Source: Siphonodentalium dalli (taxonomy: Eukaryota > Mollusca > Scaphopoda > Gadilida > Siphonodentaliidae). Taken from it: a stretch of 64,000 nt of DNA. A model generated the notes under the pieces. That model saw only the letters and a list, made by a program, of their open reading frames with translations, had not been told where the DNA came from and did no database searches. A program made the translations under genes and the position numbers. The stretch is taken from the NCBI GenBank assembly GCA_032622095.1, contig CP136064.1, positions 46,761,573-46,825,572 of the forward strand, written 5' to 3'. This document shows, one piece after another, positions 18,801 to 56,000 of this stretch (positions are counted from its first letter, which is position 1; every line of letters starts with the position of its first letter).

Positions 18801-20193
18801 ATTGCCTGGCATTCGTGGGCGACTCGCCCTTGTATCTTCGTGAGTGTAGTCGAGGGTAGTTCCACAACACATATGTAAGGGGTTATTAGAAGTACGAGGA
18901 CATTAAGGGGGTCCGGGCTGTGAGTTTGTTTATTGGGGGCGCAATTTTGTAATTCTGGCTGAATCTGGGAAGTTTAGGGGTTAATAAGCGGCACTTACGT
19001 TTGACCTTGACCACTCTCCGTGCGTATTTGGGTTTCATTAACACCCTCGCACAGATATGAATACTAAAATCACACCTGGACGCAGCAGGGGCGGTCCGGG
19101 CTGTTAGCTTCATTTCGCGGCGAATATTTTCGTCGATGCCGGCATTTTGAGGGTTAATAGCGACGCTGAGTGGGTTTCAATGACACCCATGCACTTATAT
19201 TGGCCGTAAAATCACTCATATAGTCCATATGGGGATCCGGGCTGGACCGGGATGGTCCGGACTGTCAGCGTCGTTATGGGTAAACATAATCGGCGAAGGC
19301 GGCATTTTGGGTGTTAATTGCCAGGCATTCGTGGGCGACTCGCCCTTGTATCTTCGTGAGTGTAGTCGAGGGTAGTTCCACAACACATATGTAAGGGGTT
19401 ATTAGAAGTACGAGGACATTAAAGGGGTCCGGGGTGTGAGTTTGTTTATTGTTTATTGGGGGCGCAATTTTGTAATTCTGGCTGAATCTGGGAAGTTTAG
19501 GGGTTAATAAGCGGCACTTCCGTTTGACATTGACCACTCTCCGTGCGTATTTGGGTTTCATTAACACCATCGCACAGATATGAATACTAAAATCACACCT
19601 GGACGCAGCAGGGGCGATCCGGGCTGTTATCTTCAATTCGCGGCGAACATTTTCGTCGATGCCGGCATTTTGAGGGTTAATAGCGACCCTGATTGGGTTT
19701 CCATGACACCCCTGCACTTATGTTGGCCTTAAAATCACTCATATAGTCCATATGGGGGGGTCCGGGCTGGACCGGGATGGTCCGGGATGGTCCGGGCTGT
19801 CAGCGTCGTTATGGGTAAACATAATCGGCGATGGCGGCATTTTGGGGGTTAATTGCCTGGCATTCGTGGACGACTCGCCCTTGTATCTTCGTGAGTGTAG
19901 TCGAGGGTAGTTCCACAACGCATATGTAAGGGGTTATTAGAAGTACGAGGACATTGAGGGGGTCCGGGCTGTGAGTTTGTTTATTGGGGGCGCAATTTTG
20001 TAATTTTGGCTGAATCTGGGAAGTTTAGGGGTTAATAAGCGGCACTTTCGTTTGACCTTGACCATTCTCCGTGCGTATTTGGGTTTCATTAACACCCTCG
20101 CACAGATATGAATACTAAAATCACACCTGGACGCAGCAGGGGCGGTCAGGGCTGTTAGCTTCATTTCGCGGCGAACGTTTTCGCCGATGCCGG
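15868..20193 (+). repeat. Right satellite arm, part 1: eight ~522 bp units
   Basis: The marker CACTCATATAGTCCATATGG or its variants recurs at about 16083, 16610, 17126, 17648, 18174, 18688, 19213 and 19739, a mean step near 523 bp. Each unit holds three modules of about 170-185 bp. All three start GGTCCGGGCTGT followed by CAG, GAG or TAG, and all have GGGTTAAT in the middle. Between the third and first module are one to three copies of a 10 bp word (GGTCCGGGCT, GGACCGGGAT). Minus-strand open frames of about 61 and 102-113 codons recur in phase with the units; I treat them as by-products. The arm ends abruptly at CCGG (20190-20193), where the 32.8 kb block begins. Confidence 0.9.
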
Positions 20194-20263
20194 TGTTCTG
20201 CTTAATAAGTACGTTGCCAGATAAGTCAGTATCTAAAAATAGAACGGCTTAAGTATAGGCCCC
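20194..20263 (+). repeat. Left terminal inverted repeat of the 32.8 kb block
   Basis: About 40 bp of strong match to the right end (TGTTCTGCTTAATAAGT and TGCCAGATAAGTCA), then weaker similarity to about 20263 (GTATAGGCCCCG). The partner is 52947-53016. Confidence 0.8.
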
Positions 20264-20766
20264 GGTGCGCACATGTGCTATGGACGAGCTCTGATTGGCT
20301 CTGCACATAAAGGTAAAGGTCGTACTTCGTGTCGGGATAATACATTTTGCCAAATTTTTATTTTGCTGTCACTCAAGATTCTGTGTTCTTTGAGAATCAG
20401 GTGTCTTGCGGATACCAAAGGTCCAAACTCTAATTGACGCGGGCAAATTTCACTGACTTTCATTTCAACCTGAATAGAAGATAGATCTAAGAAGATTTAC
20501 AAGACTTTCGTCCTCTTATAACTAGTTGAAACTTTCCTATGAAACAATAAGGACAAACAGTATAAAAACTCATTCTTTGTCAAAACAATCATTGAATGGA
20601 ACCACCTGGAGGCTGGAGGACACGGCCAACGCATATGATTTAACATCAACAACAACATTAACAGCGTAAGTCGTCCAACGGTGAACCTACAGCCAAATCA
20701 AGGCTCCTACACCCGCCCGACCAACATACAGATGCAGATCGAACTTGAAACAAGATAATCACAAAG
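20264..20766 (+). promoter_or_regulatory. Possible promoter and untranslated exon near the left end of the block
   Basis: An ATTGGCT (CCAAT-box complement) lies at about 20293. A consensus-like splice donor (AAA followed by GTGAGTATT) lies at about 20764, and a second possible donor (AGCGTAAGT) at about 20665. Less AT-rich than its surroundings. No downstream exon could be linked, so this is only a candidate transcription start for a passenger or transposase gene. Confidence 0.2.
20552..20611 (+). pseudogene. Very short LINE reverse-transcriptase C-terminal fragment
   Basis: Twenty codons read DKQYKNSFFVKTIIEWNHLE, close to the D.Y..SFF..TI..WN.L motif that follows the reverse transcriptase in mollusc LINEs. 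Nothing upstream or downstream extends it convincingly. It is a fragment at best, and the short match could be chance. Confidence 0.4.
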
Positions 20767-22426
20767 TGAGTATTTACTGTATTATATATTATAAATTAAT
20801 ATAAGTGTTTTCCACGTAAAAACATTCAATTAATTCTATTCAATATAATTCATTGTCATTGAGTGATTGACGCGAAATTAGGTTACTTAGTACAACTGAC
20901 CTCCTCGATACAATCATTATGATTAAACGCTGAAATGCATAAAACTAAAAGGCCATGTGCATGCGTTGAAATTATTCAGATTCAGGGGTCATTGATATTG
21001 TTGCCACATTTTGGTGTGTTGGCTGGTTGGAAACGGGCCAGCTCGTCCCACTCCCAGATCTACTCGTGGCCATATACTATAGCGACGAGGTCGCCGAGTC
21101 ACTATGTGGCCATGGAAACGACGATTAGCTTTCTTGAGTAAATTCTCCCAGCCTGCAAAGGTATCTGTGTCAACGGCGTCACGGGTGCATTGTATCGCAA
21201 CTACCGTACCGTAACGGTGCATATATTTATTATCGCCAATTCGTTATCGCTAATTTTATCAGGGAATTTCATAGGAAATGGTAGATAAAGAGTGATACCA
21301 TGCAATATTTCTCCTAGGCAAAAACAGCATTCTCTTTAATAGGCTTTTTTTTTAATTGTCCAAAACAAGCTCGAATTGTTCAATTATGTTACTGAATGTG
21401 TTAGATCTTGTTACTGTTAGAAATCAATTGTCATCTAAATAATTTGATCATTACTGATATTTAAAAACTTCAACTATATGTAACCATATTTGTTTTTATT
21501 TCAAAATACTTTCTGAGTATTAATTATATAATAATATAAGCCAACACACAACAACAACATAATGGTACTGTTTTGAAAGTTCATGTTTCTTGCAATAGGA
21601 AATTTGTATGGGCCAATTCCTTTGAATTCTGGGCATATAATATTGATATTGGTAATTACGTGGAGTGGACCCTTCTGTATCTGTTCATGACTCGTATTGA
21701 CTGACTTAGGTTTTCTCCGCACGGACTCCAATTCTGTAACACATGTGTTGGGAATATGTGTTTTGGGTACCCAGTACTAGTACATTACCAGTCGATTTGC
21801 AAAATCCTACCTGTCAAAAAGTTTGTTGTGAGCAAACCCGCCCTGTCGCCCAGCTTGAAATCACAGCTATTATCTACGGGTCAGGCAAATAATTCACAAA
21901 AAAAAAAATGCTGAAATGAGTTTTATGGCTTTTCATTTCATAATGAGGGATGTGAATACCATCCAGAGAAGAAGAATCATTCCAACCGGATGAAAATTAT
22001 TAATTGGCTTCTTTATCTATAAATTTGTATAAAACATTACTTTTACTGATAGGCGAGTCTGATCAAAGAGAAACTATTTCACAACATACCTATATTTTAA
22101 CATTGTTGATATACATTTATATATAGAGGATCTACATCGGCTCCTATAAGACATGCAATAATGTTTCACGTAACTGCCCTCATAAAGAAATAGTCCAAGA
22201 TAAATAAAGACTCTTTGTCGTATTTAATGGCGTATATTTAATGACATAATTTTTCAAACTTCTTCATTCATTTATAGCTTGTGGGAAAAATATTGGAAGC
22301 CAAAGTATTTTGAGACGTAGTGTACGGAATGTAAACAGACGACAGACCGATTTCAAGAGTGACCTGGCACTATTTCCAATTATTAAACGAACGTTTAATA
22401 TCACAATTTATAGAATGGGTTTATTG
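20767..22426. other. No recognisable gene
   Basis: AT-rich DNA of 1.7 kb. Short open frames at 20935-21141 (plus) and 20989-21222 (minus) overlap each other and show no family motifs. No structured repeats seen. Confidence 0.35.
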
Positions 22427-22636
22427 AATGGAATAAGGGTAGGACCATGTAATAAATATATTTTATAAAAAAAATTCGTACATTTTTGTTTACTGTTACA
22501 TGTATTTGACAAAACTTGCTGCATAAAAAATTCTGAGCAATCCTTCTGTTTGGTTTCAGACCAAGTCAATATGATACAAGTCGCTACAATCCAGTTTGGG
22601 AACACGAACGAACATACTGACATCCAGGGGATACAG
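22427..22636 (+). repeat. Direct repeat, copy 1 of 2
   Basis: About 210 bp matched closely at 23478-23696. Shared words include TACTGTTACATGTAT, TTCTTCTGTTTGGTTTCAGA (copy 2; one change in copy 1) and ACGAACATACTGACAT. The two copies flank an hAT-type element plus about 80 bp of further sequence. Confidence 0.8.
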
Positions 22637-22717
22637 TCTCAGGCAACCTATTGAAAGCATGAGGGACATTTTCAAGTGATGGGTGAGTATTTGTAGAGGC
22701 AGCTAGATATTTATCTC

Positions 22718-23451
22718 CAGTGTTCGCGCTGGACCGAAAAATATTTTAGCCAAATGAAAATTTTATTAGCCAAATGAGAAAAACTTTAGCCAAATGTTTT
22801 TTGGCCAAATTAAATCCTCATTTTCTGGGCGGTTCACAATTAATGACTAAAATATTCGCTTTAAACTTTATTTGTTATTCAGTATAAAAACATAATTAAA
22901 ACAACACAAAAACAACTTTAAAAACAATATTATACGAACATATGTATGTATTACATGAATATCACACAAGCAGATCAATTCATAAAACATTACTATAGAA
23001 TATGGCGGGATTTCACATCGCAAAAGCCCGCATAAATTCGCTAAGCTAATTAATTGTAATAACTCTATGTCGTTGACACTTTTATGACGAGAAGCCAGTT
23101 TATTAAACGGGATGCAGATTACGCAACCATTGATTAAGAACTGCTCTTCTGAACAAAGCATTTAGGTATTTTATCTTACAGACGGCTTAATCAGTTACAT
23201 AACCAGTATACAGCTTAAGCGTTTTGACGATTAGGCTGGTTAAATGTCATCGACAGCGTATTAACATAAGTACGAAATACTTTCGTCACATAACTTCGAT
23301 CTATTCAGCGCTTTTATTAATTAGCTTTACGACTCCATGCTTTCCGTCTCCATTTGGGGTTAAAAAAAGTTTAGCCAAATGAAATTTTTATTAGCCAAAT
23401 TCGAATAATATTAGCCATTGGCTAATTTGGCTACCGACAGCGCGAACACTG
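22718..23451. mobile_element. hAT-type non-autonomous transposon, 734 bp
   Basis: The ends are CAGTGTTCGCGCTG (22718) and its exact inverse CAGCGCGAACACTG (ends 23451). The flanks TTTATCTC (22710-22717) and TTTCTCTC (23452-23459) form an 8 bp target duplication with one mismatch. A CAGTG start with 8 bp duplication is typical of hAT elements. The motif TTAGCCAAAT is repeated several times just inside both ends, as expected of subterminal transposase-binding sites. The 97-codon open frame inside (minus strand) has no transposase features. Confidence 0.85.
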
Positions 23452-23477
23452 TTTCTCTCTAAATCACAGATATGAAA

Positions 23478-23696
23478 ATGGAATAAGGGGTAGGAGTCGT
23501 AGGACCATGTAATAAATATATTATATAACATTTTTTCGTACATTATAGTTTACTGTTACATGTATGTGATAAAACTTGCTGCATCAAAAATTCTGAGCAA
23601 TTCTTCTGTTTGGTTTCAGACCAAGTCAATATGATACTAGTCGCTACAATCTAGTTTGGGAACATAAACGAACATACTGACATTCAGGGGATACAG
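23478..23696 (+). repeat. Direct repeat, copy 2 of 2
   Basis: Partner of 22427-22636. A few substitutions and a short insertion after GAATAAGGGG (TAGGAGTCG) distinguish it. Confidence 0.8.
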
Positions 23697-24699
23697 AGCC
23701 ACTTGTTTTATGATTGACAGGTACAAAATCTATTCTAGCCATGGTTATCCGATCTGAATGTAATTTGGTATGGAGGTTTGCCATCACAAATACTTTCAAA
23801 AGAGTGCCCATTTGCGTTATTTGTGTTTTTATTTTGTCTGATTAATCGACCTTCATAAAATTTTCTCGATTTTTTGTCTGTCAGGCTTTGAACCAATTTC
23901 AACAAACAAAGTTTTGGTATTCACTCGTGCAGGTGTTATTCAGTCATCACGGGTCGGATTAAGACATCTTTCAAAATAAGCCAGATAAGAAAATTAATAA
24001 ACCTCATTAGAAAGATACCTTGGTGGGGGTATTACATGTATATATTATATATATATATTATATATTATACCAAGCTCTTTCCTAAGTAAAATAAAATAGA
24101 AAAATTGGCCATGCAAGCAGGGGGGGGGGTCGGAAAAAAATTTCAGGCACGTATGGCATTTTTTCACTTTCGATCATTTTTTGTACCCACCCACCCCCAC
24201 TGCCAAATTTCTTTCCGTTTTCGGCAGTTTTTTCCGACCATTTTTTTGACACCCCCCCCCCTTTTAACACTAAAACAGAGATTTGCGGGGGGAAATTCAC
24301 TGTAAACAGCTGTATATGAATTTCTGTGCATACTATTTATCATGGATGTTAACATGGGCATGTAAATAGGAATGAGTCATTTTGAGGTCATTCGGCAAAA
24401 AAAACATGGCTGCCAGTGGCTATCTTGGATTTCAAAATTTGCAACAAAATACAACACGATAACTGCCTGCAGTCAGTTTACCAGTTAGAATTACATTATT
24501 TCTCTCATTCAAAGTGGTTTTGAAGCCCAACTCATTGCCAAAACACTAAAAAACAGCAGGACATTTTTTTTTTAGTTGCGGAAAAAATTGCTTGTTGGTG
24601 GCTTTGACCACCCACCCACCCCGGCATACGTGCCGAAAAAAAAAAATGTACTTGTCCCATGTATCTACTATCTAGCTACTAACTATAGCAAGGGCGATT
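23697..24699. other. Low-complexity DNA with a dispersed-repeat fragment
   Basis: Holds an AT microsatellite (24035-24070), runs of G, C and A (24119-24129, 24251-24261), and at 24340-24450 a fragment of the ATGGCTGCCAGTGGCTATCT dispersed repeat also seen at 35-40 kb. Open frames here are products of the homopolymer runs. Confidence 0.5.
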
Positions 24700-25060
24700 T
24701 TTATCTCACAGATTTTTGGTAATGGGCAGGTGGTGGGTGGTCATTTTCAGATGAGTGATTTAACATAACTTGAACAAATATCAACTGATTTGTTGATATT
24801 TGATATATGAAACTTGCTCATTAATGCTCAACAATGTCTTGATCGAGTTTGAAAACCGGTCAGGTATGTGAAGCACAGCCCTTAATTAGTTAATTTTTAA
24901 TAGTGCCATAACTTGAAAAAAATTAATCAACTGATTTTGTTATATTCGGTATATGAGACTCGATTAATAATGTCTTGTTCGAATTCAAAGTCTACTAATA
25001 TGGTTTATAAGCATTCTTTCTCTATTTCTATAGATTACATGTATCTCATCCTGTTTTTTT
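24700..25060 (+). repeat. Diverged tandem repeats (GAGTTCGAAAACC family), left part
   Basis: About two weak units marked by ATAACTTGAA, TCAACTGATTT, TATATGA and a GAGTTTGAAAACCGG or TCGAATTCAAAG word. The same family continues at 25980-26054 and 28117-28700. Confidence 0.5.
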
Positions 25061-25279
25061 GAAGATATCCTACAAGCTATCCAACAGTGAACAGAATTTA
25101 GATCCTACTCAGGCTACTGGTAACTCTTAAGAAGAATTAGGATAGATAAAACAGTAACTATTAAGGTTATGGATCTACCACAGGTAACTTGAATTTTTAG
25201 CTGCATTAATTTTAGACTTATTTTAGTTCAACTGAGAAATTGTTATGACTGCTTGTCCAGGCAACATAACTTTAAAGAA

Positions 25280-25392
25280 TTGTGTGGTATAGCATGATAC
25301 AAGGTGATTTCAACTGATTTGGGACCAATACCAACACGAACCGATGGGTGGTATTGGTCCTGTTGAGTCTTGTATCATGCTATAACACACAA
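25280..25392. repeat. 113 bp hairpin
   Basis: Twenty-four bases from TTGTGTGGTATAGCATGATA on pair with CTTGTATCATGCTATAACAC onward (25369-25392) with one mismatch. An inner stem GGACCAATACC / GGTATTGGTCC surrounds a small loop. Probably a foldback MITE or hairpin-forming repeat. Confidence 0.75.
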
Positions 25393-26054
25393 CCCAAGAC
25401 ACTGTAACATTTTTACCATGTTGACAATTCTAACCAATTGGGAAAAAATGCTCCATCTGTGAGTTTGCATGCCAAAAGTTACATTTTGAACGAATCTGAT
25501 AACATTACTCTCACATGCCTTTAGAATAATCATGATGTCCCAATGATGAATTTTGTTTACATGATTCCAAATGATAACAACCAAGATCAGAATAATAATT
25601 GAGGTCTGTTGGATTGGGAAGAAGATGTTAAAGCTTTCAGAGGGGTAGTTGTGGAAAATGTTTTCTGTATAATTCCAAGTGATGTCCACCAAGATGACTT
25701 GGATAAGAAAAAAAATCTATATTTTTTTGCCAACTCTTTCCATGATGGGAGGTGGAAGTGGGTTGAGATATTTATACCTGAGTATCCCCTCTCCACCATG
25801 AATGAGCATAAGAAAAACAAGTTTAAGTTTGTTACAAACCTATGTAACACATCCATTTATTGATGAATTGTGACAATTTTTGGTACATGACTTTAATCTC
25901 ACATTTGACAGAAAGTCAGGCCAACCCCGTCTTTTATTTAACCAGAGTTATCCCACTTATTTATATGTAATTTTATGTCCATTAGTGTGGTAACTTTATA
26001 ACAAATGTCAGCTAATTAAATTCATATTTGGTTTATCGATCTTTCACAACAATA
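25393..26054. other. Unassigned DNA with overlapping orphan open frames
   Basis: Open frames on both strands overlap at 25375-25863. The plus frame (84 codons) has charged residues and an WKWVEIFIPEY stretch but no motif I know. Overlapping equally long frames on opposite strands argue against coding. The end (25980-26054) belongs to the GAGTTCGAAAACC tandem repeat. Confidence 0.3.
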
Positions 26055-28710: not shown

Positions 28711-28763
28711 CCATCTTTGATGAGCAACCCTAGTTTTGTCATCCTTGGGTGGGAGTATTTATA

Positions 28764-29443: not shown

Positions 29444-29557
29444 TACTTAATGGTATGCCTGGAATCTCGCTGATTTTGTTTGTTATTATCACAGGTTGAA
29501 AAACTTTTTCTCAGAGTTAGTTGAAAAGTTGCAAAAATAAACAAACAAAATTCGCAA

Positions 29558-30655: not shown

Positions 30656-31273
30656 TCATTGTGCCGAATGGGTTCATATTTGGTACAAAGGGTCTTTGGG
30701 GGACTGTTATTCAGATTTGTTCAAATGAGGTCACTGGGTCGAATGTGGGCGGAGCCAGTGACATAACTAAAAAAAAAAAAAATTGTTAAATTTAGAATTT
30801 TTGGAATTTTCACCTTACTCAGTTTAACAAACAAAAAATAAGCATGTTATAAAATTTGAAAAAAAAGTGACACCATTATAACATCTGCAGAGTTATGAAA
30901 CTTTAATCTTCTGAAATTACAGAAATATTCCATTACCCATCCCCCTCCCACATGGCCCAGACCCACCCCCCACCCAGCAGTGGCCTACACCCAACCAACA
31001 TCCCTTCCAACAGATATCATTTCCAGCTTCCAACATTAATACCTGTTCTATTAAAGTTGCAGATATCTCTTTGTGGATAGACAGAGAGAAACACAGGTCA
31101 TTAATCTAGAATAGAAAAAAATGTCGCTGACAGCTTGTATAAACATACTGCTAGCAATTTAAACAAACTGCCTGAATTTAGTGTGTCTGACATTTGCAGG
31201 TCAGAGAATCATTAATAAGAGGCACAATCTATCATGTATTGTTCAACAGGGCAAATAGGATGTCTGTCATTTG

Positions 31274-31360
31274 CAGAATGAGGTCCCCAGAGGGTGAATT
31301 TAGTTATGCTATCCCACACAGCAGGCTATCATCAACAAATTCACCCTCTGGAGATTGCAG
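31274..31360. repeat. Hairpin MITE (GAGGTCCCCAGAGGGTGAAT family), copy 1
   Basis: GAGGTCCCCAGAGGGTGAAT is matched by AAATTCACCCTCTGGAG downstream. The stem is about 20 bp with loss of the final bases on the right. Confidence 0.7.
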
Positions 31361-31460
31361 AAGATAAAATTCATAATTGAGGTGTCCAATGGGTGAACAT
31401 AAACTTCAACTGAGGAACTTCAATCTTATCCTAGGTCTGCCATAGCAGTTGAGGGCTTAG

Positions 31461-31553
31461 CAGAATGAGGTCCCCAGAGGATGAATTAAGTGATGCTAGC
31501 CCACTGTGCAGCATAGCGTCACTAAAGTCACCCTCTGGGGGGACCTCATTCCG
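31461..31553. repeat. Hairpin MITE, copy 2 (best preserved)
   Basis: CAGAATGAGGTCCCCAGAGG pairs with CCTCTGGGGGGACCTCATTC; the stem continues through TGATGCTA / TAGCGTCA. Copies 1 and 3 (43961) share stem and target context (TGACAGACAC or TCAGACAC nearby). Confidence 0.8.
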
Positions 31554-32290
31554 TAGATGACAGACACACTATCACACTATTTCAAGGCTTGATTGTATAA
31601 TACATTGTGTTGCTTGAGGCCATGCAGATACAATGTAGGAATAGGCACACTATTTGCAGGCTTGCTCCTTTGGTGATTGTGGTTCAGATTTGTTCAACCA
31701 GGGTCACCAGGTCAAGTGGGTGCAAGGCCAGCTACATTACTCTTTCTCTACATAGTAATTCATGATGTGTCTTCTATGCAAGAATCGAACGGCCTATTTT
31801 GCTTATATTTGGTATGAAATTACCTTGGGTGACAGATTTATGAAAATGGGATCACAAAGTCAAATAAGGGCAGAGCCAGAGACTTAACTATTTCACTACA
31901 TAGTAATTCTTAAAATATGTTTGCAAGAACTAGTTGGCTTAATTAGCATGGAATGTTCTTCCTTGACTGCAATTCAGATTTTTTTTAAATGGGGTCACTT
32001 GGTCAAATAGGGGCCAAACGAAGGACAGTTTCACTCTTAATATGCTTCCTTCACAAGGACCATCAGGTCTATTTTACTGATATTTATGATATGTATGAAG
32101 GGTTCTTTGGTGTCTGGGATTCAAATTTATTTAGATGGGGTCACCAGGTTAAATAGGGTGGGACCAGGGACGTAACTGTATTAAATTTATCTTACATATA
32201 GTATGGAGGATCCTTTAGTGACTGAGATTCAGATTTGTTAACATGAGGTCAACCTGTTAAGGAATGACAGGCTATGGGGAGTTAACACTT

Positions 32291-34080
32291 TTGTGTCTAA
32301 TAAAATCATTGAAATACCAAATTCATAAAAAACATCTACCTTGAAACCACCTGACTGATTAATCTGACATACATGTATTGTGTCTTGGGTCCATGGATAA
32401 TTGGGCTTCAAACATGTCTAAATGGTTTTGGAAAAAGGCACTGGTGAGATTGGAAATTTCCAACAATTGAGAAAGTTTGAGGTGTCAGTTTTGAAATTCC
32501 AACCTACGACTTGGGAGTCTGTAGCCCGGTCAAAGGGGACTTGTTGAGCTGGAGGAGCGGGTGATCAGTAGTGTACAGTTGGTAATTTCAAGGTGGATTT
32601 TCACCAATCTACATATGTGAAGTCTCTCTAGCCACATATCCTGTTTAGAGCTATTTCTTTTAAAGTGATTATGAAAAGTTCTGACTGTTGTAGTCTCCAG
32701 CGTCCCAGTCTTATCAGTTCTTTGCAGTCTGGTGAGCGACCCCACAGTCATTGACTGTCTTGTTATGTTTTATCCTACTATTTTAACATTTAAATTTGAG
32801 TATGAACTACCTGTAGAATTTAGTTCCTGATAACATTCACTTAATTCAAATAAATCGTCTGAGGAATGTCAGTGTTATACATTTTATATGTCTTCCAACA
32901 CATGTACACATGTGGTGCACATATTAAATGTCAACACATGAATCTCATATCAGGTTTGCTCAAATTGGGTTGGTTATTCAAGAAGGGGAAGTCCTTGCAG
33001 ATTTAATACTCTGCCTTCAAATTAATTGAATCAAGAATATGTATGTACATGTATGTCACTGTGAACACTTTAATTTCTAAGCTGAGTGTATGATTCTAAC
33101 TATTTATTTTGAAGTAAATTTGACAAGTACTGACTGTTGTAGTCTTCATAGTGCCAGTCTTCTTCTCAGTTTTCATATTGAATTGTAAATTGGGCAATGT
33201 TGTCAGGCACTTATTTGATAAGTGTTCTGAATAAATATTTATGAATGCCATTACACAATAAAAATTCATGTTATTTTATTATGTGGCTGAAACTGGCTCC
33301 ATATTTAGTGTCGGATCGGCCTGCAGCCCATTTGTGCACTAAGTGCATACATAGAGGATCTCTAATGAGTCGCAATTTTATATGAAATTTATTAACCGAG
33401 CTAAAACTCGACTCAAATAAAAAATTTGTGGACAAGGTTCATAAATTTTGTAAATAAATTGGATGAATTCGAGATCCATTCTATCACATAATTGCATTTT
33501 AGCAAGGAAAACGATCTCGAAATGCCTGGGGTTAAATTTGTTTTTTTATTTCTTTACCACAACCAAAGAAGCCTTCAAGAAAAAATATAGTTCCATTTTG
33601 AATGCGTCTTTTCTTGCTGACAAAATTGTTCAACCACCATTATCACCAATGTTTATCTCACAGTCAACACTAAATAACACAACACAAATTGAATATCATA
33701 ATTATATTATAATTAACATAATAATAAAGGTCTGGCATTGATATCGACATCATTGAACGGAGCTCTTATGTCACTGCGCATGGGAATTATACATGTGTGT
33801 CTTACTAAAAAATATGAGATCGGATTTAGGGGCTACTGTGTGATAAATTTTGATCTTAGACACACTCTTTCTCTGGGAGCCTTTATTCAACCGCAGCCTC
33901 TTTGTGCACTTTTAGCACAATTTGTTCGTTTAATCATTTTGATTTAAAAAAAATAATTATTTAAAAGTTGAAAAAAATATTGAATTTATAATTATTTTTT
34001 ATGTTGAAGTCAAAACACATTTTTTTTTTAAATTAAGTTTATTTATTTTTTTAAATAAAAATTTCGATAAAATAACGGCA
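32291..34080. other. Unassigned AT-rich DNA with repeat fragments
   Basis: Contains a segment at 32600-32765 (CTGACTGTTGTAGTCT, AGTCTGGTGAGCGAC, CATTGACTGTCTTGTT) that recurs at 44745-44875, and part of it again at 33128-33170. A stretch at 33300-33460 shares words with the hairpin at 51719 (GAGGATCT, ACTCAAAT). Open frames at 33463-33947 show no family motifs. Confidence 0.45.
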
Positions 34081-40500: not shown

Positions 40501-40654
40501 ATTCATCTCTAAAATATGTATCTCTAAGATACACAGTTTGCACTGTCCAAGTAGAATCTAATAAATCAGGTTTACAATGCCATGAAGTTGTCTTCTCACG
40601 TTGAGCAACAGAGATAGTATCAAGTGACAATGACTCTCTCTTGCATTGAGTTAA

Positions 40655-42042
40655 TGGACCTATCCATAGGTACCGCCCCAATTTCAATTATAGCCAATGA
40701 GCCGATAGCTTAAACCCGGAAGCGACATAGGACTGCCTAGTGATATGAATTGCACCACAAGCCAGTCCCTAACTACAGTTGTAAGCTATAGGGAATTTAC
40801 GAACACGGGAGCAAAATATGTCTTAAAAAGCTACAATGGTGTTGATATGTGCATGTGGAACATGTCCGATTGACGAACGATATTTATACATGTTTTAGTT
40901 CGGTTTCCTATATAAAAAAAAGTAACTATGACATCTCTTTAGGCTGGATTAAACAATGCCACCGACCACACTCGGATCCTAGTGTTATTTAAATTTCAAT
41001 ATTTATATATAACAGATTTCAGACTAAAACGTGGAAATAGTAGTCCCGATCGGTGATGCGTTATGAATATTAATTGTGCCGCGAGTATGTGTTTTATGTG
41101 AAGTGTTTTTCGTTATAAATGTATACATTTGTTGCTGTTATAACATCGTGGTAATATTGAGTTCGACTGTCTGCTATTCGCACTAACCTGTAGGAGCTCG
41201 TGCGAACGTCGATCTTACTGAATCCATTTGAGAATCTAAAGCTTCCTCCGACAATGTACGTGTAAATGAGAATCAACAGATGTTTTCCAAGAGAATTACA
41301 CGAAATTTCACACATTGCACGTGCTTCACAGTGTATACACGCAACCTTCACCGAACAAGTTCACTTTGTGCCATTTGTTGCCTCGACATGGCAACATGCA
41401 ACAGACTCCATGATAGTCGGCATTTTCTTTAATGTACATTATTTACGGGAAAATAGGATGTGCAATTTTAAAAGGCCATTATTTGATAATCCTTTGCATC
41501 CGGCCTGATGGCACCAGGGTTCATTCAGGACGCTCGTGTATGGTAATCTGATATCGTTATATTTATTTCGACAAAAGAGGGATTATAGATTAATTACCAC
41601 ATGTACACCTACGTTTGGTTTATTGCATCAAGGTGTGAACCATTAGCATAGCTTCGATAGTAAATTTGCTATTTGATATTGAAGTTTCATAATGGCTTCA
41701 TTTACACCGTTTGATTCAACGTATGCCTAAACATCTATCTTTGTTGTTTATCGGAAGTGACCTAACAATCACACCTGTTTTTTTTTTTAAACTGGTTCTA
41801 TTTTTGTTTATATCTAATGACAGTCACTTTTTCATGTTGCATATATACACACAAAGGTATCTTGAAAATCGTGATATTCAGAAGGGACCTATATTATGGT
41901 GTTACATGGCGTTTAACAACACAGTCCTTTCTCATCGGAAGCTATTTTAGCACTGAAGAGATAGCGGAATTGAGATGGCTTGTGGTGCGTAGTAACAGTA
42001 ACCATGCAGTCTACAGGTGGGCGGGACGTACGGATAGGTCCA
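40655..42042. mobile_element. TTAA-flanked DNA transposon, 1.39 kb
   Basis: Ends TGGACCTATCCATAGG and, in inverse, TGGACCTATCCGTACG, with further match at CCGCCC and at GCACCACAAGCCA. TTAA flanks both sides (40651-40654, 42043-42046). TTAA duplications belong to piggyBac and Kolobok elements; because TTAA is a palindrome a shorter TTA or TA duplication is not excluded. No transposase was recognised in the short frames inside. Confidence 0.75.
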
Positions 42043-42163
42043 TTAACTGCTAGCAGATGTGTTGGCCATATGATGAGATATCATAGATGGAATGTTTATG
42101 CTTTTATATTTTATATGCATGGTTATTTAAATTTCATCTTAACCCTTTACCCAGCAGAACGGC

Positions 42164-42424
42164 CCTGTGCCAATGCATTCTCTTATATATGCGAATCGAC
42201 AGAATGCATTGGCTTAACACATATTAAAAATGATAAAATTGTCAAAGAATGTAGAAAAATATTATAAAAAATGTTACAAAATGTACGAAAAAATTAAAAA
42301 ATTGTTAAAGAATGTAAGAAAAAATGGTAAAAAAGATTTTTTTTTAGGCCAATGCATTCTCTTATATATATGCGAGGCGACCTATGGTCAACTCGCATAT
42401 ATAAGAGAATGCATTGGCACAGGG
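42164..42424. repeat. Foldback repeats (CCAATGCATTCTCTTATATA family), inner copies
   Basis: A palindrome at 42349-42424 and a shortened one at 42164-42222 match the cluster at 14005-14490, including the GCGACCTATGGTC loop. Between them lie A-rich words (AAAAATTGTTAAAGAATGTA) also present near 14205. Confidence 0.75.
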
Positions 42425-42879
42425 CATAACTGTAACCATCACAATGTGGTCAATGAACCGGTTCCAATGATATCCATATTTGTATGGTTTTATTGAGATG
42501 GACCGAAGATATTTTAGGATGTTGAAGCTTTATTTGGGCGTTTTTGGCCGGTTTGTTGGTTAAAGGGTTAAAGGCATAATCTGGTTTTATGGTTTAATAG
42601 CATTACTATTGGAGGTTAATAATGTGATTGTGTTTAGTAGATTTGTTGGTTGCATGGGAAGACAACTTGAGAGCTCTGTATCAGTCTATGAGAACAAAAT
42701 AATTATTCAAAACACTTTTAGAACTGTAGGTCTAGTTTGTTTTATTTATATATTAATGGAAAGCTTTTTCGACATTGATTTCAATTGATTACAAATGTGA
42801 ATAGAAATATTAAAGAGGCACAACAGGTTTGAACTTTGATACATTTTTCTTGTACTCTGCATGAGATAAAACTTTTTAT
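42425..42879. other. No recognisable gene
   Basis: AT-rich; nothing assigned. Confidence 0.35.
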
Positions 42880-44907: not shown

Positions 44908-45067
44908 AAGAAATGAATGCAGTGGGTTTATGCGTGTGTGTTATTGAGAGATACTGCACATAGGTTGTTGTGACACATTTAGTGTCAACCGCTTTACACA
45001 ATGTCCCCAAACGACCACAGCGCCGTGTCCCCCAATAACACACGCACACCCACTACATTCATTTCTT
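44908..45067. mobile_element. Foldback MITE, 160 bp
   Basis: AAGAAATGAATGCAGTGGGT, then TGTGTGTTATTG, pair with CAATAACACACG and ACCCACTACATTCATTTCTT at the far side. The flanks are AT-rich and the target duplication is ambiguous (TA or longer). Confidence 0.7.
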
Positions 45068-46322
45068 AAATACAATATTTTGTGCAACTCTCATTTTATC
45101 TTTGAAGCTCCATACTTTAATATATACATGTATGTACTACTATAGAGCACATATTAGATATTGTTGTTATGGACTTTTCCCGAAATTGAATAAATAGTTT
45201 GACAGTATTTCTCTTTCTCTCTCTCTCCATTGTCCTGGATATATGGCCTCTGAAAACAAGTTGAGGAGAAGACCTTCCAACATTTCATGGATGCATGAGA
45301 TGAAAATAATATTGCCTCTATCGATGAGATGAAACGACATTTTTATATCTTATCCTTTTAAGATATACCAACATGTATAACCAGTGTTATAAATGAAATA
45401 ACCATTGCAAGATGTTTATCAATTACAGATACAGTGCATGCGGTTCTGCATTACATTCAGTCAATAATGAATATATTTACAGGCATGTGGGCAATTGCAT
45501 CTTTCAATAAGTCATTTCTAAAGTGTTTCCATTTGTATTATCCCCCAGCTGTGTCACTAAATTACCCGCTTTTATATAGACAAGAATTCTACTGTCAATA
45601 TTTGGAGATATTTCATCCCAATATCTATAAATTCAAATCAATGTTAGTCAGCAATCTTGAAGCAGTGAAGAAACCACACCTGATGTTACCCACAGATTAC
45701 AATATTTTAGTCGCGCACTTCCATTTCAAATCAAAGTGGTTTGTTCAAAAAGATTCCCTACAGTATCTCCTCTGATGGGCCAACAGAAGCTTGAAGTTTG
45801 CAAAGAATCTTTCCATTTTTTAAACAGTTTAGTTTAAATATTCATCTGATGCCCTGTAGTACTTGTGGAGTTTCAATGTATTGAAGGAACAATAATTTAG
45901 ATATGTGCCTTGAATGGCAAGCGTTTGTATCAATTGTGTGTTGAAAGACAAGCCTGTGTTAGGATCTCCAATAATTGGATAGATGTCTGCATACAGTAAT
46001 ATATTTGAAGCTTTGAAGTACATTTATGACAAATTTGTGGGGATACCTTTACTAAATGGTAGATCAATGATGCACTTCACAATAAGGTGATATGGAGGTG
46101 ATTTTAAAATATGAAAATGGAGCCATCAGACAGTGATCAAGTACCTGCTTGGTGAGGAAACTTGCACTAGAGGAGGGGTGCTGTCAGCGCGGGAACTAAT
46201 CATTCCACCATACAAAAATAAGTCCATCATATCTCTATCAATTACTAGATAGGATACCTGGCATTGCTCAGGTAAAGAATGAACACATTATTAGTGCCCC
46301 CTCCAGTCATTTAAACTATTTA
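45068..46322. other. Unassigned DNA with one 113-codon orphan open frame
   Basis: The plus frame 45434-45775 is preceded by an acceptor-like ...TTACAG at about 45429, but the protein shows no motif, transmembrane segment or family similarity I recognise. The surrounding DNA is AT-rich. Possibly an exon, more likely chance. Confidence 0.25.
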
Positions 46323-47628: not shown

Positions 47629-50448
47629 TCTTATATCTATATTTGCGAATGTCTGTCTGTCTGTCTGTCTGTCTGTTGTTCTATAGAAATTCACAGGGGA
47701 CCATCTAGATGATGCCAAAGGGGTCTACTAGGAGTAGTTTTTTACGAGAAAGATAATGGTCGTGGTTAGAATTTTCTAAAGTGACGCCGTTGTTGTCAGG
47801 GGCAGAAAGGGGTAGGGGCAGAAAAGGGGTAGGGGCAGAAAAAAAAATTGTCGCCGATTGCCACCAAACTTATATATAATCATCCCCATAATATGAGGAA
47901 TCTAATGGCGTGGTTCAAATATGGCAAAAGTCGCGCCAGGGGTGCCCGGAAGGGGGGGGGTAGATTTTTTTTCTGTCGCCGATTGCCACGAAACTTACAT
48001 ATAATCATCCCCATGATATGAAGAATCCAAAGGTGTGGTTTAAATATGTCAAAAGTGGCGTCGTTTGAGTCAGGGATGAACGGAAGGGGAGAGGGGCACC
48101 AAAATTGATCAAGCTAATTTTAGCGCCGATTTCCACCAAATTGATATATATTCTTCTTCATGATACAAGGAATCTAATTGTGCGATTTAACAACGCCAAA
48201 TTGTTGTTTTTGGATGAGAGATTGGGAGGGGTGGGAACTAAATTTGATAATAAGTCGCCGATTGCCACCACACTTATACAAAATCATCCCCATGGTATGA
48301 GGAGTCTAATGGTGTGGCTTTTTTCTGTCAAATGTGGCCCCATTCGAGTCAGGGTTGCATTGAAAGGGACAGGGGCACCAAAATTGATGCACAATATTTT
48401 AGCGCCAATTTCCACCAAATTGATACACGTTCTTATCCATGATACGAGGAATCTAATCGTGATCTAAAGAGCCATAGTGGTGCTGTTTGGGTGAGAGATG
48501 GAGAGGGGAGGGATTGGCACCAAATTTGATAAAAAAAATTGTTTAGTCGCCGATTATCACCAAACTTATAAACAATCATCTCCATGATATCAGGAGTGTA
48601 ATCGTGTGGTTTAAGGATGTCACAAGTGGGGCCATTCGAGTCAGTGGTATATAGAGATGAGAGGGACACAAAAACTTATATCTATATGTTTAGTGCCGAT
48701 TTCCACCAGATTGATACATATTCTTCTCCGTGATACGAGGAATCTTATCGTGTGGTTTAGATACACCAAATTGGTGCCATATGGGTGAGAGATATGGGGA
48801 CCTTAAATTTGATACGAATTTGTATACTCGCCAATTTTCACCAATTTCTTATATATGCATATCTAATCTCTAATGAGTCTTAGTTTGTGCAGCTTGAGTC
48901 CGAAATAGGAACGGGAGGGTCACCAAAACTGATACAAAATATTTTTAGTACCAATTACCATCAAATTCAGACACGTTCTTCTCAAATTATACAAGAATTA
49001 AAATCGTGCTGTCTGTCTGTCTTTTTTGTCTGTCTGTGTGCGTTCTATATATAACTTCACGCGGTACAATCGAGATGGCACCAAGGCGTTCTAAGAGGGG
49101 TAACTTTTTACAAGGAAGATAATGGTGCGGGTTAAAATTTTCTAAAATGACGCTGTTGGTGGGAGGGGAAATTAAAAAAATATGGTGAAATAGTTTTGTC
49201 GCTGATTTCCACCAAACGAATATATAATCACCTTCGCAATATGGCGTTGTTCGAGTCAGCGTTGCATCAACAATTGATTTAATAAACCAAATTCCACCAA
49301 ATTCATACACGTTTTTCTCTAATGATATACCATGAATTAAACCACATTTGCTGTCGTTTGCGTCACGGATGGCGAGCGGATATGCACTATCATTGATAAG
49401 ATTGCTATTCGCCGATATCCACATATAAGTTATATACAGTCACCAGGCCATCTCCATATCATTTTAAGTAGTTGGGCGTTCACATTTAACAATCCCGACA
49501 TATGGTGACCCACATAAGTCACTTGAACAATTATATCTTCTTAACAGTCATATTTATATGGGAATGGCAATTAAGGCATTCACACAATGAGCTAGCTAGC
49601 AAAAAGAGATAACTAGAAGAAGCATTAAAAGTATATTTATCATTCTATTGAAGAGATACATATATTCGTGCAAACTGAGAGACCTCGAACCGTCAGAGGA
49701 TTGCATATATATAATAACAAAATTTAGTCTGTTCCATTCAATGCAGTTTCCACAAAAAGTTACAATTTGTCAAGAGATATGGAAGGCCTGTTCAAAAATA
49801 GTGGTCACAGTGTGCAGTCAAATATAGTTTCTTCTGATATACAAGAAAATGCAGTTAGTAGCACAAGACTTTTCAGGATCCTACCAATACTGACATCTGA
49901 CAAGGGTTTTAGAACAGACTCATCGACTGACATAAACAACTCAAACTCTCGCTCTGTGCCTGGCACATGTAGCTGATATATGTGCGCAGCAACATTTCGT
50001 TTAAACTAAGAATATTTAGCCAATATATAGCACCATGAACAGAGGAGCACCTGGAAATTTCTTTGAAACATCTGTATCTTCATGGAGATATGATAGCCAG
50101 GTGTCCTTGAGATCATAGTCCAACTCACTAGATTGATTGATACATCTCAATATGTAAAACCCAATTATCATCTTTTATCGAACTAATGTGTTTATGATGT
50201 TCATGTATCATATTATAACGTCTAATGTATACGCAGTTGTAAATAAATAAATACTTCATTATTGGTGGAACGGATTAATCGCGATAAACAGAATGACAAT
50301 TGACAATGTGAGTGAGCCATGTTTTGTGATGCTATTTGAATATACAATTTATGAAAAAACGTATAACACTTTAAGCAAGAGCATTCTCTATTCCCAACAA
50401 ATATCCACAGCATACATTAACCCGGGCAACGCCGGGTAACCCTGCTAG
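47629..50448 (+). mobile_element. Non-autonomous Helitron, 2.8 kb
   Basis: Begins A|TCTTATATCTATATTTGCG followed by a GTCT microsatellite (about 47651-47676). Ends with hairpin ACCCGGGCAACGCCGGGT, then AACCCTG, CTAG|T (50448). These are the Helitron 5' TC, 3' hairpin and CTAG ends, with insertion between A and T. Tandem units of roughly 115 and 230 bp (CGCCGATTGCCACCAAACTT, ATGATACGAGGAATCTAAT, GTGTGGTTTAAA) fill 47830-49400. No Rep or helicase frame is present, so it depended on an autonomous partner. Frames at 48105-48467 and 48987-49424 arise from the repeats. Confidence 0.85.
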
Positions 50449-51718
50449 TATTTTATATTAGCAAAATTCTTTTGTCTGGGATTTTTTTTATCACGCTACC
50501 AGTAATTGCTCACTTATATTAACTTAGTATAGTCAAATGAAATATTTTCCAGTTCATTTCTTTAGGAAGTGACATCTGCAGTAAATAATCTTGTGTCACT
50601 AGTTTCCAAGAGGCATGGTACTACATCCTGCTGTTTAATTTGAGTATATGTTAAGCCATTCGCGCTTGCGTTAGTAATTTATTATCGAGCAATCGATATA
50701 TATAATTCGACAGTGCGTAAACTCGCACTTAATTCTCTTTTATTGAATACTCGATTGTTGGTTCGTTGAGTTCTTGGTAAAACAACAAGAACATAGAACT
50801 GACGAACTTGGGTCGTCCAAACCACTACTCGAAATTGATGCAATGGGCATTCTTCTGTGGAAATGGGGGGGGGGGTAGAAATGCATATAGAACTTACTTT
50901 CGTAAATGGTATTTCGTTTTCCCACGCATAAATTCATACAAACAATATTTTATTTGCAGAATATTCTGCAATTGAGTTGAACATACAGTAATTAATTTAG
51001 CACAGAGCACCCCTCCCCATGTAACTTGTGCTGCATGCGGCGGGGGAGAAAATGCCAGTAACATTGACGATATCAGTTATGTATATGCACGGACGCGTTG
51101 ACACGGGACGGGGTCGTGTTGTCTCCCCTTCCCACTTTGGTAAAAAAAAAATCAACAGTTTGAACTTTGAAGTCCAATACACTATAGGTTTGTGTGCAGT
51201 TAGCGATTATAAATTTCCAATATGTGGCCATAGTATGGTGCAATTATATAGACTTTCTTCAATTTTGAGAATTATTTTGGTTCGATCAAAGGTGGTGCAT
51301 TTAGAAATTCCAAGTTTTGCACCAAAACGGAAACATTCTAGACACGTTCATGTAGGGCCTAAATATGTTTTAAATATAAGTTTGCAAACCGTATAACCTT
51401 TATCGCGATTCTGATATAAATGGTTCATCCCTAGCTCAGACATATACGTATATAGTTTACCCACCCAACGGTGTATATACAACTATCAATTCCTATAATG
51501 AGTCCGTGCCACTATTTCTCCGATACAGTATATATATTTATCACATAATTTGCCATAAAAGCAGTTTCATAATTATCGATAAGAGACACGTTTAATATCA
51601 GCGCGTGCGATGACGTCACATCGTTCTTCAAATGACATGCGATCGCTGCGGTTTTTATCGTTGTTTTCGATGGATATTTCGCATTGCTTCGCGTTTATTT
51701 GATCATGTGATAAAAAGT
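50449..51718. other. No recognisable gene
   Basis: Unassigned DNA. Overlapping open frames on both strands at 50997-51396 have no recognised features. Confidence 0.3.
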
Positions 51719-51858
51719 ATCTCACACTCGTCCTATTTTATACGTAATTTATCAACCTCGTCCACTAAATTCTATTTGAGCCTCGGTAAACCTCGCTCAA
51801 ATCGAATTTAGTGAACTCGGTTGATAAATTCCGTATAAAATAGAAACTCATGTGAGAT
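51719..51858. repeat. 140 bp palindrome
   Basis: ATCTCACACTCGTCCTATTT at the left pairs with the inverse of TAGAAACTCATGTGAGAT at the right. The stem continues through TATACG(T/G)AATTTATCAACC and CACTAAATTC to a loop near CTCGGTAAACCTCG. A foldback repeat; weak relative at 33330-33460. Confidence 0.8.
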
Positions 51859-52946
51859 CCTCTATATACAGCCTATAATATAGACTGGGATTTGTGGATG
51901 CGAAGGCCTATATACAGGCACGCTTAACCACCTGTCACAGCAGACAGTCACACAAACACGGAGTTAACGAAATGTATAGGGGATATTTTGCATGGGATCC
52001 ATACATATATAGGTGTAGGCATGCTACCGAACATGGTTTGAGTGACTTTTTTTTCGCACGATGTCGCCTCGGTTGCTCTTTATTGGAGATTCGATCGATG
52101 GTTTACACTATAGCTGCCAATAATGCAAATATAGTACACTATATATTGATATAATGTGTGCTCTCATCTATAACTACGAGCAGCATCAGTATATAACCAC
52201 CAACTCAAAGTTTGTGATTATGTTGTGGTTGATTTAGTTAAATTCGCATGTTTCCGTGGTCTGACCGTGGATTGTAGTATAATATACTACAGAGCGCGCG
52301 GTATCAAACCCTGGAGGATCTTTAATTCAAGCGTACTTGACCAATCCATTGTTACGAATTTGTTAAATCATTTTAGTAACGTATTCAAAACTTGGTGTGA
52401 TTCTTCCCGTGTATCAATGCACATTCATTGTGATGCATGTATAGCCACCGAAGGGGTTATCGTGATAATATAGCCTATAGCATATACGACCATTCAAAGA
52501 AAGTAATATAGCCAAAAATACAGTAGTTATCAACAATGGTGTGTGTGGGGGGTGGGGGGGGGGGGCGGGGGTAATAACATTTGTTTTTCTCATTCAATGC
52601 TAAATTCTCAGAAGCATTTAATTATTTTGCCATAATTAGCAATCGGTGGGCCATATTTATTAATCGACATCATAAGTTAGGGTAGGTCTAGTCATTGCAT
52701 AAATGTGAATTTATTCTTATCAACAGCGATGCCATATGTATAAACACATTCCCTGTCCCCAATACGAAGAAATTTGCCCGGGGAGTTGATTTTAAACCTT
52801 TATTCGCGTAAAAACGTTTCAAAAATCAGATCACGGAAGCATTTTTTCGATATCGTGTGCGTAATACGTGATACACTACATATTTATTGACTAGGCAACG
52901 CCAAACGACCATGTCGTAATTGCAGCGATATTTCTCCGAGGGCGGG
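51859..52946. other. No recognisable gene; G-rich run at 52539-52572
   Basis: Open frames at 51894-52154 and 52225-52473 lack family motifs. A G-rich low-complexity stretch lies at 52539-52572. Confidence 0.3.
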
Positions 52947-53016
52947 GCTATACATCCACGTTACTATTATTAGAAATATTGACTTATCTGGCAGGACGAA
53001 CTTATTAAGCAGAACA
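52947..53016 (-). repeat. Right terminal inverted repeat of the 32.8 kb block
   Basis: In inverse reads TGTTCTGCTTAATAAGT, TCGTCC, TGCCAGATAAGTCA, then diverges with a residual GTATAGCCCCG match. Partner of 20194-20263. Followed by CCGG and satellite in the same phase as before the block. Confidence 0.8.
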
Positions 53017-56000
53017 CCGGCATTTTGAGGGTTAATAGCGACCCTGAGTGGGTTTCCATGACACCCCTGCACTAATATTGGCCTTAAAATCACTCATATA
53101 GTCCATATGGGGGGTCCGGGCTGGACCGGGATGGTCCGGGCTGGTCCGGGCTGTCAGCGTCGTTATGGGTAAACATAATCGGCGATGGCGGCATTTTGGG
53201 GGTTAATTGCCTGGCATTCGTGGGCGACTCGCCTTGTATCTTCGTGAGTGTAGTCGAGGGTGGTTCCACAACACATATGTAAGGGGTTATTAGAGGTACG
53301 AGGACATTAAGGGGGTCCGGGCTGTGAGTTTGTTTATTGGGGGCGCAATTTTGTAATTCTGGCTGAATCTGGGAGTTTAGGGGTTAATAAGCGGCACTTC
53401 CGTTTGACCTTGACCACTCTCCGTGCATATTTGGGTTTCATTAACACCCTCGCACAGATATGAATACTAAAATCACACCTGGACGCAGCAGGGGCGGTCC
53501 GGGCTGTTAGCTTCATTTCGCGGCGAACATTTTCGCCGATGCCGGCATTTTGAGGGTTAATAGCGACCCTGAGTGGGTTTCCATGACACCCCTGCACTTA
53601 TATTGGCCTTAAAATCACTCATATAGTCCATATGGGGGGTCCGGGCTGGACCGGGATGGTCCGGGATGGTCCGGGCTGTCAGCGTCGTTATGGGTAAACA
53701 TAATCGGCGATGGCGGCATTTTGGGGATTAATTGCCTGGCATTCGTGGGCGACTCGCCCTTGTATCTTCGTGAGTGTAGTTGAGGGTAGTTCCACAACAC
53801 ATATGTAAGGGGTTATTAGAAGTACGAGGACATTAAGGGGGTCCGGGCTGTGAGTTTGTTTATTGGGGGCGCAATTTTGTAATTCTGGCTGAATCTTGGA
53901 ATTTTAGGGGTTAATAAGCGGCACTTCCGTTTGACTTTATTCCACTCTCCGTGCGTATTTGGGTTTCATTAACACCCTCGCACAGATATGAATACTAAAA
54001 ATCACACCTGGACGCAGCAGGGGCGGTCCGGGCTGTTAGCTTCATTTCGCGGCGAACATTTTTCGTCGATGCCGGCATTTTGAGGGTTAATAGCGACGCT
54101 GAGTGGGTTTCCATGACACCCATGCACTTACATTGGCCTTAAAATCACTCATATAGTCCATATGGGGGTCCGAGCTGGACCGGGATGGTCCGGGCTGTCA
54201 GCGTCGTTATGGGTAAACATAATCGGCGATGGCGGCATTTTGGGTGTTAATTGCCAGGCATTCGTGGGCGACTCGCCCTTGTATCTTCGTGAATGTAGTC
54301 GAGGGTAGTTCCACAACACATACATTGTATGTAAGGGGTTATTAGAAGTACGAGGACATTAAAGGGGGTCCGGGCTGTGAGTTTGTTTATGGGGGCGCAA
54401 TTTTTTAATTCTGGCTGAATCTGGGAAGTTTAGGGGTTAATAAGCGGCACTTCCGTTTGACCTTGACCACTCTCCGTGCGTATTTGGGTTTCATTATCAC
54501 CATCGCACAGATATGAATACTAAAATCACACCTGGACGCAGCAGGGGCGGTCCGGGCTGTTATCTTCAATTCGCGGCGAACATTTTCGTCGATGCCGGCC
54601 ATTTGAGGGTTAATAGCGACCCTGAGTGGGTTTCCATGACACCCTGCACTTATATTGGCCTTAAAATCACTCATATAGTCCATATGGGGGGTCCGGGCTG
54701 GACCGGGATGGTCCGGGCTGGTCCGGGCTGTCAGCGTCGTTATGGGTAAACATAATCGGCGATGGCGGCATTTTGGGGGTTAATTGCCAGGCATTCGTGG
54801 GCGACTCGCCCTTGTATCTTCGTGTGTGTAGTCGAGGGTAGTTCCACAACACATATGTAGGGGTTATTAGGAGTACGAGGACATTAAGGGGGTCCGGGGT
54901 GTGAGTTTGTTTATTGGGGGCGCAATTTTGTAATTCTGGCTGAATCTGGGAAGTTTAGGGGTTAATAAGCGGCACTTCCGTTTGACCTTGACCACTCTCC
55001 GTGCGTATTTGGGTTTCATTAACACCCTCGCACAGATATGAATACTAAAATCACACCTGGACGCAGCAGGGGCGGTCCGGGCTGTTAGCTTCATTTCGCG
55101 GCGAATATTTTCGTCGATGCCGGCATTTTGAGGGTTAATAGCGACGCTGAGTGGGTTTCAATGACACCCATGCACTTATATTGGCCGTAAAATCAATCAT
55201 ATAGTCCATATGGGGATCCGGGCTGGACCGGGATGGTCCGGACTGTCAGCGTCGTTATGGGTAAACATAATCGGCGAAGGCGGCATTTTGGGTGTTAATT
55301 GCCAGGCATTCGTGGGCGACTCGCCCTTGTATCTTCGTGAGTGTAGTCGAGGGTAGTTCCACAACACATATGTAAGGGGTTATTAGAAGTACGAGGACAT
55401 TAAGGGGGTCCGGGGTGTGAGTTTGTTTATTGTTTATTGGGGGCGCAATTTTGTAATTCTGGCTGAATCTGGGAAGTTTAGGGGTTAATAAGCGGCACTT
55501 CCGTTTGTCATTGACCACTCTCCGTGCGTATTTGGGTTTCGTTAACACCATCGCACAGATATGAATACTAAAATCACACCTGGACGCAGCAGGGGCGGTC
55601 CGGGCTGTTATCTTCAATTCGCGGCGAACATTTTCGTCGATGCCGGCATTTTGAGGGTTAATAGCGACCCTGATTGGGTTTCCATGACACCCCTGCACTT
55701 ATGTTGGCCTTAAAATCACTCATATAGTTCATATGGGGGGGTCCGGGCTGGACCGGGATGGTCCGGGATGGTCCGGGCTGTTAGCGTCGTTATGGGTAAA
55801 CATAATCGGCGATGGCGGCATTTTGGGGGTTAATTGCCTGGCATTCGTGGACGACTCGCCCTTGTATCTTCGTGAGTGTAGTCGAGGGTAGTTCCACAAC
55901 GCATATGTAAGGGGTTATTAGAAGTACGAGGACATTAAGGGGGTCCGGGCTGTGAGTTTGTTTATTGGGGGCGCAATTTTGTAATTTTGGCTGAATCTGG

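Follow-up and report, generated by a model that had tools for sequence, protein, structure and literature searches.

The stretch analysed here, referred to as the window, covers 64,000 nucleotides of the scaphopod mollusc Siphonodentalium dalli (C4:46761573-46825572), and the 2.23 Gb, nine-contig genome from which it comes was searched for related copies. It contains a block of 32,823 bp at 20194-53016 that interrupts a forward-strand array of a ~525 bp satellite, with the left part of the array at 15867-20193 and the right part at 53017-62521 in unchanged phase and orientation. Judged from sequence comparisons, the block is one copy of a young, multicopy family of giant transposons rather than a one-off insertion, a stack of nested elements or an error of assembly. 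This status follows from the agreement of three lines of evidence, namely the pairing of its ends across the genome, a colinear copy on contig C7 and a probe from its core.

The left end at 20194 reads TGTTCTGCTTAATAAGTACGT-TGCCAGATAAGTCA, and the right end at 53016 reads TGTTCTGCTTAATAAGTTCGTCCTGCCAGATAAGTCA as the reverse complement. The terminal inverted repeats span 35 bp on the left (20194-20228, forward strand) and 37 bp on the right (52980-53016, reverse strand) and differ in a single substitution plus a gap of 2 bp; beyond them a weaker inverted extension continues for 73 columns at 79% identity. The outermost 21 bases of the left repeat match those of 17 other right ends, these being the fully displayed ones out of 19. 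Copies of CCGG lie immediately outside the block at 20190-20193 and 53017-53020. Both the matching inverted ends of about 40 bp and the outer CCGG motifs had been claimed by the initial annotation of this DNA, and both are borne out. The satellite array holds 20 intact copies of the palindrome ATGCCGGCAT, in the middle of which the target CCGG sits. Since CCGG accounts for only 1.2% of satellite positions, it is improbable even within the satellite that the element met a CCGG target by coincidence.

When the flanks are joined and one CCGG is removed, the resulting 4.2 kb sequence is uninterrupted satellite (unit length 507-530 bp) that closes without a gap, as expected from the earlier claim of equal orientation and phase across the break. 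It aligns over its full or nearly full length at 12 places, with the best alignment at 96.3% over 54068-58261. An empty paralogue of the target block was located at 55140-56716 on the forward strand, where the interrupted unit and the units on either side of it find their closest counterparts next to one another: the interrupted unit is closest to 55663-56190 (99.1%), its left neighbour 19159-19681 to 55140-55662 (99.0%) and its right neighbour 53037-53561 to 56191-56716 (99.8%). This block is colinear with the target, and its base-by-base alignment shows no gap at the junction. The presence of an empty paralogue of the same site points to a recent insertion. The element could also have reached the site through exchange with an empty chromosome. 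At 53037-58280 the array includes several units that have been duplicated as a block (99.0-99.8% identity), the right copy being longer by one unit, and satellite units in inverted orientation occur at 14643-15663, to the left of the array proper.

The genome contains 219 exact copies of the 17-base terminus, against 0 for the controls. It is preceded by CCGG in 193 cases (88%), and the reversed-pattern control gave 0. Pairing was carried out on the first 100 of the 193 CCGG-flanked ends, which span C1-C4 and part of C5. Altogether 78 of these ends form 39 convergent pairs within 100 kb, with lengths from 624 bp to 77.9 kb and a median of 33.7 kb; 30 pairs measure 25-45 kb and 37 are at least 20 kb long. 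The initial annotation had named as a refuting outcome that copies of the ends would always mark a small complete element lacking common interior sequence; this was looked for and not found. The only two small pairs are deletion derivatives of the large unit: one of 624 bp (C5:20471704), in which 81 bp match the left end and 557 columns match the right end, and one of 8.0 kb on C3 (locus L064, C3:187320990-187329060). One flank of L064 repeats the other in inverted orientation (GAATCTCTAC...GTAGAGATTC), suggesting an insertion inside a palindromic repeat.

Both ends were also used as probes. For the left end, 40 of 1160 first-look candidates were scored, yielding 40 long matches of at least 94% identity, the window included; for the right end (probe 52817-53040), 40 of 231 were scored, yielding 40 matches of at least 97%, again including the window, and nearly all of these stop at the element edge followed by CCGG. 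In addition to the C7 and window copies, CCGG stands before 19 of 20 other left ends (the exception being L027) and after 19 of 19 other right ends. One neighbouring pair of ends in the wrong order represents two elements that share one CCGG. At this locus (L028, C3:271112218) the elements stand back to back, and L029 (C3:274357073) has a similar appearance. The two loci nearly duplicate one another, which would fit reuse of an element's own CCGG as a target and a later duplication of the region.

The interior of the element is shared as well. When 20 other left ends were followed ~9.5 kb inward, all 20 matched from the first base of the element, with 89.7-99.2% identity in the first matched piece. 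Most of them stay colinear for several kb with private gaps and insertions, as judged on at most 14 rows per locus, and in L023 and L025 colinearity is mostly lost early. An end-to-end comparison was made between the window copy and the copy on C7, which was followed across the adjoining stretches L012, L033, L034 and L035. The C7 copy is 31,648 bp long, has CCGG at both sides and lies in different flanks. It holds element positions 1-4461, 6578-9107 and 12122-32823 in order, with smaller gaps (e.g. 31345-31669) and one internal duplication of ~4.5 kb, and its right end is followed by CCGG at C7:65577859. Segment identities range from 94.0% to 99.4%, and substitutions affect 0.93% of 31,525 aligned positions, counted on segments no shorter than 500 bp and no less than 93% identical, with one duplicated stretch counted twice. 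The window-copy segment 29301-32314 (element 9108-12121), which includes the lowest-CpG stretch, is missing from the C7 copy.

The third line of evidence comes from a 301 bp core probe (45400-45700), for which 40 of 113 candidates were scored. All 40 match at 96% or more, giving at least 40 copies. When compared with the end pairs (39 from the CCGG list and 9 paired by hand), 26 of the 40 matches fall inside a pair, in 24 different pairs including that of the window itself, and 23 of these 26 lie 3.6-7.5 kb from the end faced by the 3' side of the probe. Another seven have a listed right end no more than 100 kb away, and for the last seven neither applies; among the latter, C3:74451472 is inside and C1:172542300 near CCGG-less termini. 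One pair of 58.7 kb contains two core-probe matches separated by 24 kb, which gives it a doubled or nested look. The search with the ends that the initial annotation had proposed thus found inverted pairs with a recurrent spacing, CCGG flanks and shared contents, and the colinear C7 copy together with the paired ends and the core probe upholds its view of a single non-autonomous element of ~32.8 kb with a 4 bp duplication.

In agreement with the initial annotation, which had recognised no transposase, integrase or recombinase inside the block, a six-frame translation of the whole window copy (with X at stops) has no Pfam match at E <=0.1. As a control of the method, the same procedure finds a decayed Mutator-like transposase (PF20700) in the left flank at ~4129-5169 on the forward strand, with E 2.9e-24. 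Six-frame comparison of 29.5-44.5 kb of the window with PDB sequences gave a single match at E 0.025, which was taken as noise, no Rfam family reached the gathering threshold, and no tRNA was found. In loci L010-L035, 15 open reading frames of at least 170 codons were present, of which eight were tested, including one from L035 that sits outside the element. Three match domains of non-LTR (long terminal repeat) retrotransposons, five match nothing, and none of the eight is an integrase; the three longest reading frames in the sampled parts of other copies are pieces of non-LTR retrotransposons. Separately, the window has a weak match to PF05551, the zinc-binding loop of His-Me homing endonucleases, at ~9427-9606 on the reverse strand (E 3.1e-5, below the 27-bit cut-off). 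KolobokP transposons of molluscs and other phyla have been reported to encode such a His-Me enzyme (PMC9587614).

By CpG content the block divides into three parts, whose borders are approximate because the segmentation was trained partly on the element itself. The left segment (20194-23677), which also occurs in other copies, and the right segment (49041-53016) have normal observed/expected ratios of 0.95 and 1.07. The core between them (23678-49040), which has no Pfam domain and is common to the C7 copy, is mostly CpG-depleted (0.58 and 0.53), with a minimum of 0.12 at 31001-32500 where TpG/CpA is raised. The end segments of 3.5 and 4.0 kb and the satellite are near 1, and the left flank too has a patch of 0.53. 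In 500 bp blocks the ratio is 0.97 in the terminal parts and 0.60 inside. This contrast is reached by 5e-5 of random and 6e-4 of contiguous block choices, so that block permutation supports the difference between ends and core, and simulation supports the patchiness. CpG in the core of the C7 copy is likewise low and patchy (0.27-1.03 in L033 and L034), with ends at ~0.9-1.2, and much of the depletion should therefore predate the split of the two copies. In invertebrates CpG depletion is usual for germline-methylated gene bodies. Dispersed repeats are common to the core, not the ends, and to DNA outside the element. These features fit, without proving it, that the core is host DNA picked up by a founder element.

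Several smaller features were annotated inside the block. The core contains diverged tandem repeats and palindromes resembling miniature inverted-repeat transposable elements (MITEs), for instance a 264 bp palindrome at 42162-42425 with 39 bp arms that are 95% complementary. A nested inverted-repeat element of 1,400 bp with normal CpG (40649-42048) travelled with the unit, since the C7 copy carries the same stretch. A 198 bp direct repeat, at 22439-22636 and 23499-23696, is 91% identical over units 1,060 bp apart, and both units occur in other copies. No inverted signature was found at the CpG borders; a 13-base T-rich direct match at 23870 and 49022 is somewhat above chance (0.12 expected for 12-mers).

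Altogether, a unit of more than 20 kb with fixed inverted ends recurs at unrelated sites with a shared interior, a fixed target and CCGG duplicated on both sides, as in a giant DNA transposon, and it has been active recently. We consider it likely that this non-autonomous giant family of ~33 kb, for which the search for coding content came out negative, is mobilised in trans by an integrase of the Ginger1 type. Under this model a Ginger1-type (Gypsy-like) DDE integrase, supplied by another element, would bind the ~40 bp ends, excise the whole block and join it to staggered CCGG sites, while copies would build up through repair of the donor gap on a sister or homologous template. As to the founder, its probable origin is a long piece of host DNA, already poor in CpG, that became enclosed by such ends and would thereafter have been copied as cargo.

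Ginger1 elements, as described by Bao, Kapitonov and Jurka (2010, PMC2836005), duplicate 4 bp at CCGG (75%) or CCGT/ACGG (24%), have inverted repeats of ~40-270 bp with TGTNR ends, measure ~2.6-7 kb and encode an integrase-like transposase with YPYY, H2C2, DDE, GPY/F and OTU or Ulp1 domains. The present family shares the 4 bp CCGG duplication, found at 193 of 219 termini, as well as TGT...ACA ends and the existence of non-autonomous copies sharing ends. Its inverted repeats of ~40 bp (35 and 37 bp plus the weaker extension) lie at the lower edge of the Ginger1 range. The initial annotation had hinted at a Ginger-like origin from the end sequences. This hint is stronger than first thought because CCGG is the published Ginger1 target, whereas the misfit of the fifth base, already remarked there, is real. 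The published elements code for their transposase, in contrast to the window copy, in which none was found, as would also be seen in a non-autonomous copy. The element would thus work like Ginger1, but it is not filed as Ginger1, because the target fits while the fifth base and the length do not and the enzyme was not found.

A number of observations weigh against this interpretation. The window and all 20 other left ends start with TGTTC instead of TGTNR, and both the 32,823 bp of the window copy and the median pair greatly exceed the published size range. No transposase of any kind with these ends, and no coding relative sharing them, was found in the six frames of the window copy or in the tested reading frames of other copies. 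Among the listed ends, 22 of 100 are unpaired, although some have a CCGG-less partner (e.g. C1:146361483 with C1:146335255), and 26 of the 219 termini are without CCGG. One other copy has been traced completely, and the longest copies are known from the spacing of their ends. L017 matches up to element position 9282, then shows no match above 250 bp over the next 26 kb and has no right end within ~35 kb; it looks like a truncated duplicate of the L014 locus, because the letters of their left flanks are identical. Finally, the putative host origin of the core is argued from its low CpG and from the dispersed repeats that it shares with other DNA.

One alternative is a family that is, or until recently was, autonomous: an integrase would persist in some of the longer copies (47-78 kb), and the majority of copies would have arisen by decay or deletion from a large element that was coding or virus-like. 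The longest pair among the listed ends would leave room for this, and endogenous nimaviruses of sesarmid crabs, 265 and 285 kb in size, carry a Ginger2-like transposase inside a 46 bp inverted repeat (PMC10871703). We regard this as improbable, given the lack of Pfam domains in all frames of the window copy, the retrotransposon nature of the longest reading frames in the other copies and the doubled or nested appearance of the 58.7 kb pair. In separate pattern searches, the terminus matched one viral contig (L001), whose sole notable similarity, a 20-mer, was rejected as chance; a second end pattern had no match in viral contigs, and a longer one had none in bacterial and archaeal genomes.

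It is similarly doubtful that the ends come from a different superfamily, or an undescribed one, with the same preference for CCGG, which would make the resemblance to Ginger1 convergent. The fifth base, the size and the termini without CCGG speak for this possibility. On the other side, TGT...ACA ends with a 4 bp CCGG duplication are the published Ginger1 combination, and within the open-licence literature Ginger1, CCGG and target site duplication co-occur only in PMC2836005. Ginger2/TDD prefers AT-rich sites (RTATAY), which CCGG does not match (PMC2836005), and IS481EU, reported from parabasalids, produces target duplications that measure 4, ~15 or ~25 bp.

Growth in place, in which a small Ginger-like element entered the satellite and reached 32.8 kb by nesting, could draw on the many palindromic and tandem repeats of the block and on private insertions such as long interspersed nuclear elements in other copies; it is refuted by the same interior, colinear at 94-99% per segment, on another contig and by the core probe inside many other end pairs, and with the site being young as well we give it almost no weight. 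Satellite arrays are prone to misassembly, yet an artefact or chimeric join is the least credible reading of all and is refuted as a general explanation, as exact CCGG-flanked ends recur 193 times and pairs of similar spacing occur on C1-C5, the full reach of the list.

Two further models were set aside. A composite of two copies is not supported, as the two ends have the terminal repeat alone in common; apart from these ends, the window has one further terminus match, with 3 mismatches and at chance level. A total of 7 kb of vehicle ends around a unique captured host segment of 25 kb was dropped as a model for this locus because the core proved to be multicopy, and this model survives as an idea for the founder.

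Compared with other large mobile elements, the non-autonomous giant family proposed here stands apart in content. Like the crab nimaviruses, whose inverted ends have been attributed to a Ginger-class transposase (PMC10871703), it is a giant unit; unlike these coding virus genomes with AT-repeat targets, it is ~33 kb long, uses CCGG and has no genes that were found. Polintons/Mavericks, typically 15-25 kb and up to 40 kb (PMC6431247), are giant eukaryotic DNA transposons that carry genes for a family B DNA polymerase, an integrase, a protease and a packaging ATPase, and the 180 kb Teratorn combines herpesvirus and piggyBac genes and encodes its own proteins (PMC10175614). In contrast, no such domain was detected in the window copy. 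Non-autonomous and Pack-type elements likewise hold host-like DNA between transposon ends and are moved in trans; however, Pack-MULEs reach at most 7 kb, most being 1-2 kb (PMC6431247), against the median pair of 33.7 kb here. No CCGG-specific or Ginger1-like element of such size was seen in the open-licence papers searched, a scope that leaves subscription papers and Repbase outside.

Should the majority of the ~200 termini prove to be paired, the 219 termini (193 with CCGG) and the pair lengths among listed ends would correspond to ~100 copies and roughly 3 Mb of the genome. Across many copies inserted at a four-base target, the family retains a length of about 33 kb, with no genes found, and the block is far larger than usual gene-free mobile DNA. 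This opens to direct testing how a DDE enzyme brings together ends 33 kb apart, what preserves the length and whether large host segments become duplicated by this route. The family may, though we put this forward only tentatively, represent a protein-free class of giant cut-and-paste elements, in which gene-less, CpG-depleted and host-derived blocks of ~33 kb have reached ~100 intact copies through the integrase of another element. If this is true, cargo size need not limit how far DNA transposons multiply naturally in a eukaryote.

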